NCBI RefSeq assembly: GCF_000011485.1
Contig: NC_005071.1
Location: forward strand, 434,001-498,000
Direction: 5' to 3'
Length of the DNA stretch: 64,000 nucleotides
From: Prochlorococcus marinus str. MIT 9313
GTDB lineage: Bacteria > Cyanobacteriota > Cyanobacteriia > PCC-6307 > Cyanobiaceae
In this document: positions 24,733-28,977 of the stretch, piece by piece
Numbering within the stretch: the first letter of the stretch is position 1
Layout: every line of letters begins with the position of its first letter
The notes under the pieces: model-generated
Told to the model about the DNA's origin: nothing
What the model saw: only the letters and a program-made list of their open reading frames with translations
Database searches by the model: none
Position numbers and translations under genes: made by a program

Positions 24733-25083
24733 ATGTTCAACCCGGAGTTCCTGACCACCGATAACAGCGATTGCCAGGACGGTAATGGGCTAATTCAGTA
24801 CCTTCAGGATCAATCCCCTGATGTATTGCAGCGAGTTGCCAAGTCCGCCAGCAATGATATTCAGGACATTATTCGCCACAATGTTCAGGGCCTGCTGGGC
24901 ATGATCCCAGGTGAGCAATTTGAAGTGAAGGTCACAGCCAGTCGAGATAATCTCGCCAGTTTGCTCGCATCAGCAATGATGACTGGATATTTCTTGCGCC
25001 AAATGGAGCAACGCAAGGAATTGGAAGAGTCGTTGTTTTCAGATGAAGCGATGGCAGTCGACACAGATGATCTCAATCTTTGA
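24733..25083 (+). CDS. DUF760 family protein
   Basis: 116 aa. H-N-V-Q-G-L-L-G-M-I-P-G-E-Q-F and L-A-S-A-M-M-T-G-Y-F-L-R-Q-M-E-Q-R-K-E-L-E are the conserved core of DUF760, a small family of cyanobacteria and plastids. Soluble, no signal peptide; the C-terminus is acidic. Function unknown. The last 11 bp overlap the 3' end of the convergent DUF4336 gene. Confidence 0.88.
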   Translation: MFNPEFLTTDNSDCQDGNGLIQYLQDQSPDVLQRVAKSASNDIQDIIRHNVQGLLGMIPGEQFEVKVTASRDNLASLLASAMMTGYFLRQMEQRKELEESLFSDEAMAVDTDDLNL

Positions 25084-26296
25084 AGGCTGCCTGAGGATCT
25101 TTCGGTACCACACCAAGGTTGAGCAGGCGTTGATCAACGCTGCCTAGAAAGCTCCAGCTGGCTTGATTGATAGCCCATGGGCGTCTGGAAATAGATTCAC
25201 TTAAATCTCGAACGTGATGAGGCTTGAAGGCCACGATGTCGCTGAAGTGAGCAGACACAAGCCAGCGCATCCCTTTCAGGCGCCGCATCTCATCCAACCA
25301 TTCCAATAAGACGTCCTTCGCTCTTGGAAATACCAGCCGCTCCAACACAGGCGCAATTTGTAGGAGTGGGCCGTTCTTCCCGAGACGCTCCTGAGCCGCA
25401 GCTTCCCATCCGGGCTGCCAAGCGAATGGAAACAGGCCGAAATGGGCTTTAGGGCTAAGTGTTCCGGGCCTGAAGGCATTGCGCAGCACCTCCAACAGGG
25501 GAGGAATCACAAGCGGCCCTGGCTTCAGATAGGTCGCGAACAACACCACACGGGCCCATCCTCGGCGGCGCGCTTGTGGAGAATCCTCAAGGGGTTGATC
25601 ACCCCGATCACGGGCGTGGAATAACAAGGGTGTGGGGTCTAGATCAAACAGAGCTGGAGGCTCTGCCTCGATGCCCACTAGAGCATCTGTTACCAATACA
25701 GCTCCGGAAGCTCGGTGAAAACAAGCCACCTCTTCAAAACGGCCAAGCCCCAAATCCAGGGGGCCTAAAGGCAGCCAAGTACAACTGTCTGGATGGGGAA
25801 AGCCGTCCTCCTGCAACACCTTGGTGCGGCGCGCTGGAATGCCCAGCCAAGATGAAGGCAAGGAAATTGGGAAACTCCACTGACCAGGACAAACCCATAC
25901 CTCTGCCTGTGGGAAGGCTCGTGCCATTGCCGGTAGAGACAGTTTGTGCTCTAGGCCAGACGCGGTGGGGAGCACAATCGTGACGACATTGCCATGTGTG
26001 GCCTCCAGATCAGCTAGAGCTCGGCGCAACTCGGGAGTAGGCGGAAGGGGATTGAACAACATCAACCCACCTGGCACCTTCACCACGGTGAGCCTTACAG
26101 GCACAGCGACGTAATAGAGGCCTTGGAGTTGTTCAAAACTCCAGATCTGATTGGGTATTAGTTCCCGGACCAGGGTGCGGCGCTGACCATAGGGATAGAG
26201 AGGTAACAGCGGCCACCAAGGCCACTCTTGATCAAGCCAAGAGACAGTCTTATTGGCACTCACTTGACCTGAAATAGCTTGATTCTCGGGAGTCAT
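25073..26296 (-). CDS. DUF4336 family protein
   Basis: 407 aa from the ATG at 26296. The conserved core begins W-P-L-L-P-L-Y-P-Y-G-Q-R-R-T-L-V-R-E-L-I and continues through I-W-S-F-E-Q-L-Q-G-L-Y-Y-V-A-V-P-V-R-L-T-V-V-K and I-V-L-P-T-A-S-G-L-E-H-K, the signatures of DUF4336 (cyanobacteria and plants; distantly metallo-beta-lactamase-like). Soluble, no signal peptide seen. Function not established. Tail-to-tail overlap with the DUF760 gene. Confidence 0.85.
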   Translation of the reverse strand: MTPENQAISGQVSANKTVSWLDQEWPWWPLLPLYPYGQRRTLVRELIPNQIWSFEQLQGLYYVAVPVRLTVVKVPGGLMLFNPLPPTPELRRALADLEATHGNVVTIVLPTASGLEHKLSLPAMARAFPQAEVWVCPGQWSFPISLPSSWLGIPARRTKVLQEDGFPHPDSCTWLPLGPLDLGLGRFEEVACFHRASGAVLVTDALVGIEAEPPALFDLDPTPLLFHARDRGDQPLEDSPQARRRGWARVVLFATYLKPGPLVIPPLLEVLRNAFRPGTLSPKAHFGLFPFAWQPGWEAAAQERLGKNGPLLQIAPVLERLVFPRAKDVLLEWLDEMRRLKGMRWLVSAHFSDIVAFKPHHVRDLSESISRRPWAINQASWSFLGSVDQRLLNLGVVPKDPQAAFKD

Positions 26297-27181: not shown

Positions 27182-27484
27182 TCAGTATTTGAGATTCAAG
27201 AAGACACCAACTAAAATCAAGAGTACTGTAAGCAAGGCTGCCCATATGATAATCGGGCTAATTGAGGGATTATTTCTTTTGCTGAGGGCATCAAAAACCT
27301 GCTCCTGAATCTCCTGGTCAGAGAGCTCGACTACAGCTTCTGCCGTGGACTCATTTGAATCAATAAAGAGCGAAGCGACTTTTGCTATTGAAACTATATC
27401 TGCACCTTCAGCGGTTAATTGACTTTGCAGCAAGGGCTCTGATTTGAGCTTGGCAAGAAAAACTTTGAGCTGTGCTGCTTGCAT
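27182..27484 (-). CDS. Nif11-leader-like domain fused to a C-terminal membrane helix
   Basis: 100 aa from the ATG at 27484. Residues 1-50 follow the Nif11 leader pattern of prochlorosin-type precursors: A-Q-L-K-V-F-L-A-K-L-K at 4-14, L-L-Q-S-Q-L at 18-23, G-A-D-I-V-S-I-A-K at 27-35, and an E-L-S-D-Q-E-I block at 53-59 where precursor leaders end. Instead of a Gly-Gly/Gly-Ala cleavage site and Cys/Ser/Thr-rich core, the chain continues into one strong transmembrane helix at about 76-97 and ends N-L-K-Y; there is no cysteine at all. So this is a leader-like domain displayed on a membrane, not an ordinary lanthipeptide precursor. No LanM or peptidase gene lies in the window. Confidence 0.75.
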   Translation of the reverse strand: MQAAQLKVFLAKLKSEPLLQSQLTAEGADIVSIAKVASLFIDSNESTAEAVVELSDQEIQEQVFDALSKRNNPSISPIIIWAALLTVLLILVGVFLNLKY

Positions 27485-27882
27485 TGCAATCTTGCTATCA
27501 TTAATTACTCTATCAAGATCATGTGCAATATCAACCTTTCGTAACCAACCATAATTATAAAACTCTGCCTATGAACGATGATGATGAAAAGACTGCAAGA
27601 TCCTGACGAAATAAGTGAAGTCCCGTGATTCTCATGCTATCCATTGCATTTTGATCGAAACTTACATCCCAATGCAATCGTTGTTGGTTTGAGGAGATCT
27701 ATTGCCGCAGTTGATATGGTCTATTTACAGCAGAGCTTCATCACTATCAAGTTGGACACTCCATTGGCTATTTAGATCCAATTAGATCAATTGCGTTGTT
27801 CGTTTCTCCTCCCATTATCGCTCACTGAATCCTCGATTAAAGAAGAACTGAGGAGCTCTGAACTCCGATCCAAAGTTCGAAT
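27485..27882. other. Intergenic spacer between Nif11-like gene and PKS cassette
   Basis: 398 bp, AT-rich near the Nif11-like gene. On the reverse strand a TTGATA hexamer followed after 16 bp by TAGAGT, within about 60 bp of the Nif11-like start, is a plausible promoter. The 3' end of the polyketide cassette falls at the other end; no clear intrinsic terminator was found there. No small gene is supported. Confidence 0.4.
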
Positions 27883-28977
27883 TCAGTTGCTGTTGCAAAG
27901 ATCGAACAACGCCACTTCGGCACAAAGGCCGGGACCAAAGGCGAGTGCCAGGCAAGGTCCGCTGCAAGCCTTATGACGCATGCGTTCAAGAATGAAAAGA
28001 ACGGTGGCCGAAGACATGTTGCCGTGAGCTTGAAGGATGGACCTGGATTCAGCCAGGTGCTCATGCTTGAGGGCCAAGGCGTCGGCGCAGGCCTGCAGGA
28101 TCCTCGGCCCCCCAGGGTGGAGGGCCCAGCTGCGGATTTCAGTCAGATCGGATCCATGGCCCCTCAACCAACTGCTCAGCCAAGGTTGCAATGCATCAGC
28201 TATCGCCTCTGGCACCTGTGGTGATAAACCCATAGCGAAACCATGATCTCCGACCTGCCAATGCATCAGACTGCTGGTGTTTGGAATCACGGTGGAGCCA
28301 GAAGCCTTCAGGGTCAGAGATTGCTTCGATTCCGCCAAAGCTTGAGAAGCAACCAAAGCTGCGGCTCCATCCGCGAACAGGGCGTTGGCTACCACCTTCT
28401 CGGGGTCCCAGCCGTAATGAAGATGGAGACTGCACAGTTCGACAGAACACAGCAGCACTACAGCGTTGGCATCAGCTTCAGCGAACGCCCGCGCCACACG
28501 TAGACCGTTCAAGGCACCGTGACAGCCCATGAATCCCACATGGGTCCTCTGAACACCGGGGTCAAGTTCAAGTTGGTCGATCAGAGCAAGGTCAACACCC
28601 GGAGCCTTGAATCCGGTACAGCAAACGGTCACAAGATGAGTGATCACATCAGCGGCTAGCTCGGCCTCCTCGAGGGCAAGACGGCATGCATTGATTGCTA
28701 GCGCTGAAGCATGGTGATCAAACTCGTTCATCCTTGCGGCAGTCGTGGGGCTTTTGGCCCCGTAGAAGGGCAAACGCTTGCTGATCGGCTCACTCGCGTC
28801 GTCTCCCAGCAGAACGCTGCCCCTGTTCTGAACCTGAGTTCGTCGCTGAATCCGGCGGACCAGTGCCGCTCGTTCGGGACTGTCGGCACTGACCAACTCG
28901 GCAAGCGCCATGGAATCGCTCTGATTGACTTGTTGTTCCGGCACTGCAGTTCCCATGCCGCGAATGGTCAGAGGCAT
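27883..28977 (-). CDS. Type III polyketide synthase (chalcone/alkylresorcinol synthase family)
   Basis: 364 aa. The thiolase-fold Cys-His-Asn triad is intact: Cys152 in V-G-F-M-G-C-H-G-A, His287 in W-A-L-H-P-G-G-P-R-I-L, and Asn320 in A-H-G-N-M-S-S-A-T. The C-T-G-F segment at 120-123 corresponds to the active-site gatekeeper loop. G-C-H-G-A-L-N resembles bacterial alkylresorcinol/alkylpyrone synthases more than plant chalcone synthases. It should extend an acyl starter with malonyl-CoA and cyclise it; substrate choice cannot be read. The start overlaps the end of the flavoprotein gene by 10 bp, so it is the last gene of a three-gene operon. Confidence 0.92.
   Translation of the reverse strand: MPLTIRGMGTAVPEQQVNQSDSMALAELVSADSPERAALVRRIQRRTQVQNRGSVLLGDDASEPISKRLPFYGAKSPTTAARMNEFDHHASALAINACRLALEEAELAADVITHLVTVCCTGFKAPGVDLALIDQLELDPGVQRTHVGFMGCHGALNGLRVARAFAEADANAVVLLCSVELCSLHLHYGWDPEKVVANALFADGAAALVASQALAESKQSLTLKASGSTVIPNTSSLMHWQVGDHGFAMGLSPQVPEAIADALQPWLSSWLRGHGSDLTEIRSWALHPGGPRILQACADALALKHEHLAESRSILQAHGNMSSATVLFILERMRHKACSGPCLALAFGPGLCAEVALFDLCNSN

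Follow-up and report, generated by a model that had tools for sequence, protein, structure and literature searches.

A core-less, ProcA-like Nif11 domain on a predicted membrane helix: a putative neofunctionalised ProcA paralogue in the Prochlorococcus lineage of MIT9313 and MIT 0701

Introduction

We wondered what a Nif11-type leader might do when it is joined to a membrane helix and not to a core peptide. To our knowledge, nothing is established on what controls or localises ProcM. A leader paralogue that is under selection, has no core and is anchored in the membrane would be an obvious candidate for regulating ProcM in trans. Such a protein would further demonstrate that ordinary membrane proteins can arise from RiPP precursors, so that a Nif11 match by itself should not make an ORF a precursor. 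The question was raised by a small gene of Prochlorococcus marinus str. MIT 9313, which lies in a window of 64,000 nucleotides (positions 434001-498000 of the single 2,410,873-base contig). A preliminary description made from the sequence had read its product as a Nif11 leader fused to a transmembrane anchor.

Results

The complete ORF encodes 100 amino acids on the minus strand of the window (27182-27484), with the ATG at 27484 and the stop codon at 27182-27184, so the coordinates first assigned to it were correct. Translation, the PF07862 and TIGR03798 profiles and dN/dS together describe a Nif11-leader-like domain followed by a C-terminal membrane helix; the plus strand of the same interval contains stops throughout. 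Its two neighbours share its strand: a type III polyketide synthase gene (27883-28977) and a DUF4336 gene (25073-26296), which leave an interval of about 1.6 kb that contains no other gene. MIT9313 and Prochlorococcus MIT 0701 both possess large procA sets, a lanthionine synthetase (one LanM gene each) and C39 exporters. In MIT9313, procM is located about 180 kb from the 100-aa gene and neither C39 exporter is nearby; procA genes are likewise scattered (PMC10783134).

We analyzed the relationship of the protein to Nif11 leaders using profiles. Pfam PF07862 (Nif11) matched residues 1-45 with 27.1 bits (E=5.1e-6; gathering score 23.8), and TIGR03798 matched residues 1-61 with 25.3 bits (E=1.3e-5), short of its cut-off of 32.3 bits and of the 90-93 bits reached by ProcA controls. 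The assignment as a Nif11-type leader thus stood with the Pfam profile, so that a Nif11 match was indeed found, and failed with TIGR03798. The MIT 0701 orthologue scored below both cut-offs (PF07862 21.1 bits, TIGR03798 20.6 bits), and the 100-aa protein is the weakest of the 39 Nif11 matches in the MIT9313 genome. The patterns L-K-x-F-L-x-K-L and I-V-S-I-A-K that had been taken as leader hallmarks are present as L6-K-V-F-L-A-K-L13 and I30-V-S-I-A-K35. The nearest relatives were the ProcA leaders of the same genome, with EGADVVSIAKAAGF; in the Nif11 part they are about 52% identical to the protein. Consistent with this, a tree of 205 domains placed the protein closest by distance to its own ProcA leaders and not to housekeeping Nif11 proteins, with modest node support near it and with other diverged, long-branched domains as adjacent tips. 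Residues typical of ProcA leaders are kept (F9, L19, L23, A34 and K35 as well as L54/I59). Residues 1-60 are thus a diverged Nif11 leader of the ProcA type. Non-precursor use of Nif11 occurs in this lineage as well, in the form of a Nif11-cupin-like protein that is conserved in the genus (L067; MIT9313 contig 515490-515660, 189-aa frame).

The Nif11-like domain (residues 1-46; 27347-27484, minus strand) was delimited by the Pfam match, and column counts revealed that it lacks the near-universal Gly at position 38 and Phe/Tyr at position 39. Among the sampled Nif11 domains, 98% have Gly at position 38, where the MIT9313 protein has Ser and the orthologue Ala; at position 39, 92% have Phe/Tyr and both proteins have Leu. 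In PF07862 this Gly-[Phe/Tyr] pair normally lies in the turn that follows the A-K-x-A segment, and it is missing from the 100-aa protein. The loss of Gly38 and of the aromatic residue suggests a domain that has ceased to fold or bind exactly like a leader.

The E-L-S-D-Q-E-I block said to follow the leader was recovered as E53-LSDQEI-59. It runs into a putative remnant of the protease-recognition block, L54-S-D-Q-E-I-Q-E-Q-V-F-D65 (27290-27325, minus strand), recognised by ungapped comparison with ProcA leaders and with the N11P motif ELSDEELEAVAGG (PMC2887384); the correspondence is a by-eye reading because the MAFFT alignment puts a gap there. Read in this way, LSDDELEGVAGG of ProcA became LSDQEIQEQVFD in the 100-aa protein and the double Gly was replaced by F64-D65. 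For LahT, a model double-Gly protease active on ProcA leaders, hydrophobic residues at -12, -7 and -4 matter (PMC6363468). Positions -12 (L54) and -7 (I59) are kept, while -4 is Gln62 (Val in ProcA) and the double Gly is F64-D65. The translation held neither a double-Gly-type cleavage site nor a core, F64-D65 being followed by a linker and the membrane helix. No Cys occurs in either orthologue, so the Cys plus Ser/Thr core of a ProcM substrate is lacking. The reported absence of Gly-Gly and Cys was thereby borne out, and both its score and its lack of a cleavage site, the two features tested, put the protein outside the RiPP-precursor family. In a precursor-like ORF on contig 23 of MIT 0701 (L088), two Nif11 leader units in tandem precede a single Gly-Gly site.

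A transmembrane helix is predicted at about residues 77-97 (27194-27256, minus strand), after which only L98-K-Y100 follow. This agrees with the "clear membrane helix" previously placed at 76-97: the best Kyte-Doolittle 19-mer mean was 3.04 (residues 78-96), and 16 of 20,000 tail shuffles reached 3.0. The AF2 model has a helix at 77-99 at low confidence (pLDDT 52). By Kyte-Doolittle the protein has the single strong C-terminal hydrophobic helix of a single-pass C-tail membrane protein, and the helix is conserved in the orthologue. Among 224 distinct cyanobacterial Nif11 ORFs, a non-random sample rich in picocyanobacterial procA/syncA arrays, only the MIT9313 protein and its MIT 0701 orthologue exceeded a Kyte-Doolittle value of 2.5 after the Nif11 domain. 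The next values, 2.36 and 2.03, belonged to ordinary precursors with a double Gly and hydrophobic tails. Flanking charges are few (K69 and R70 on the N-terminal side of the helix, K99 on the other), MIT 0701 has Gly in place of R70, and orientation is not readable from the charges. With a profile match and a helix present and the cleavage site and core gone, the proposed fusion of a leader to a membrane anchor without a core peptide was upheld, and it recurs in one homologue, the MIT 0701 orthologue.

Hydrophobic segments were also seen next to Nif11 sequences elsewhere. An array of Gly-Gly Nif11 precursors in genome G407 (L158 and L207) has Gly/Ala-rich hydrophobic tails that end in KW and resemble unmodified bacteriocins. 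On contig 26 of MIT 0701 (L096; 2960-3028), an intact ProcA leader start of about 23 residues continues in frame into about 110 unrelated residues that include a hydrophobic segment.

Across its full 100 amino acids, the MIT 0701 orthologue matches the MIT9313 protein at 88% identity, and it shares the locus, the neighbours and the helix. This syntenic orthologue ruled out an artefact ORF; the 100-aa ORF is a real gene. Adjoining the orthologue, a divergent gene encodes an SPFH/Band 7 membrane protein (L031:4937-5806) that is not found at that spot in MIT9313. Comparison of the two genes gave a dN of 0.054, a dS of 0.467 and a dN/dS of about 0.12, and third positions held 26 of the 36 nucleotide differences (p=2e-6). 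Twelve amino-acid changes were present where 23.4 would be expected without selection, and 12 or fewer were seen in 0 of 5000 neutral simulations. The Nif11 half carries 2 nonsynonymous versus 9 synonymous codons, and residues 77-100 carry 3 nonsynonymous codons. Given a dN/dS of about 0.12, the gene is under purifying selection and is not a decaying procA.

Beyond these two, full-length matches were absent from the 300 and 251 family genomes (overlapping draws) and the 386 phylum genomes searched, and a two-sequence profile run over the 386 phylum genomes returned, apart from the two orthologues, leader-part matches only. Viral contigs, phages and plasmids, as well as a sequence search of the Protein Data Bank, gave no match to the 100-aa protein. 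The DUF4336 neighbourhood of two marine Synechococcus-like family genomes is without such a gene; three genus drafts (G002-G004) are uninformative at the site, as their contigs end before it or the locus is missing. So far, the protein is confined to a single Prochlorococcus lineage, that of MIT9313 and MIT 0701.

Some 70 nt ahead of the ATG, TATAATTATG (27551-27560, minus strand) may be a -10 element; it falls in the upstream stretch that is best conserved in the blastn alignment with MIT 0701. A scan for consensus promoters gave no excess over chance. Since nif11 genes of MIT9313 respond to nitrogen stress (PMC2784084), we searched for an NtcA box (GTA-N8-TAC) and found none near the gene and a chance-level count in the window. 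An RNA family search returned a chance-level match only. A short degraded repeat, by eye an IS-transposase relic (27666-27723, unstranded; 75-83% over 35-56 nt, E 3e-4 to 2e-3), is located about 180-230 nt upstream of the gene. Several procA genes have this repeat some 290 nt ahead of them, and it occurs at one further MIT9313 site (contig position 1475220). In an MIT9313 island, transposases are bordered by nif11-domain genes and IS-mediated movement was proposed (PMC2784084). This proposal and the repeat common to procA upstream regions weakly suggest that the 100-aa gene copy, too, arrived by IS-mediated movement.

Discussion

In our best reading, the gene encodes a lineage-specific, neofunctionalised ProcA paralogue whose non-cleavable, leader-like domain would be tethered to the membrane. 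The double-Gly site and any Cys-bearing core are lost, and a selected hydrophobic (membrane) helix occupies the C-terminus. The C-tail would anchor the protein in the membrane and, in the orientation we assume, residues 1-70 would face the cytoplasm, a helical binding module that is tethered and cannot be cleaved off. Its most likely partner would be whatever ProcA leaders bind, ProcM or a C39 peptidase-exporter; its effect there might be to tether, to compete or to activate in trans. We favor only tentatively the view that a procA paralogue ceased being a precursor and became such a module with ProcM or the C39 exporter as partner; binding to either is what we infer. Binding to ProcM is owed mainly to the leader (PMC11667668), and some 29 precursors are ProcM substrates (PMC10783134). 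A leader-like partner would be in line with the retention of L54 and I59, the conserved helix, purifying selection and the occurrence of ProcM and exporters in both genomes. Against a leader mimic speak the lost Gly38-aromatic pair, the low TIGR03798 score and the lack of linkage to procM or exporters. More specifically, a defunct precursor might have been turned into a regulator in trans, a natural membrane-tethered leader mimic that recruits, activates or restrains ProcM (or the exporter); we regard this as unlikely. The interpretation in the preliminary description, that a tethered leader mimic could recruit or compete for the modification enzyme or the exporter, may be called a fair hypothesis with partial support from sequence.

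Because the hallmark Gly is gone, a membrane role unrelated to leader partners is nearly as likely as the leader-partner reading. A procA-derived helical domain would then have been co-opted as a small membrane protein that binds another membrane complex without contacting the lanthipeptide machinery. The lost Gly-[Phe/Tyr], the unlinked procM and exporters and the presence of non-precursor Nif11 proteins in the same genome (the 189-aa Nif11-cupin-like protein; proteins of 60-90 aa without Gly-Gly; model TIGR03890) are in agreement with such a role, but the retained residues typical of ProcA leaders (F9, L19, L23, A34, K35; L54/I59) and the strong constraint on the Nif11 half are not.

We see a small chance that the protein is still a precursor whose hydrophobic C-terminus serves as an unmodified or unusual core, freed by another protease. 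The leader-core layout would fit, and some Gly-Gly Nif11 precursors of other cyanobacteria have hydrophobic tails (L158, L177). Hypervariable cores are typical of ProcA, though, and the tail is conserved, with those 3 nonsynonymous codons in residues 77-100; moreover, both orthologues are without double Gly and Cys. ProcA ancestry and the predicted membrane location would also suit a role in immunity or sensing, in which the protein would bind a mature prochlorosin or, at the membrane, keep watch on the exporter. This is improbable, as the export locus is unlinked and the protein would be without an extracytoplasmic domain if its N-terminus is inside. A decaying procA with a tail hydrophobic by accident, which the degraded Nif11 score and the IS-like relic nearby might suggest, is very improbable and largely refuted by the dN/dS of 0.12 and the third-position bias (p=2e-6), and the ORF is intact although 69% of the neutral simulations gained a stop.

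Returning to the membrane-tethered ProcA paralogue, three known systems offer comparison. With ProcA precursors (TIGR03798/N11P) the protein shares its N-terminal sequence, at about 52% over the Nif11 part, and the start of the ELSDxEL block. Unlike them, it has no double Gly, core, Cys or Gly38-aromatic pair, carries a membrane helix instead and scores under the family cut-off. Non-precursor Nif11 proteins (Nif11-cupin, TIGR03890; 60-90 aa) resemble it in having a Nif11 domain without Gly-Gly or core, but their Gly-[Phe/Tyr] turn is intact, they lack a membrane helix and they lie further from ProcA leaders. Engineered leader-LanM fusions (LctCE, HalCE2) are constitutively active enzymes, and they show that LanM can be activated by a leader which is not joined to the substrate (PMC5141572). 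The fusions are artificial, enzyme-fused and not membrane-anchored, whereas the 100-aa protein would present a natural leader that is likewise unattached to a substrate and may act on the enzyme from the membrane.
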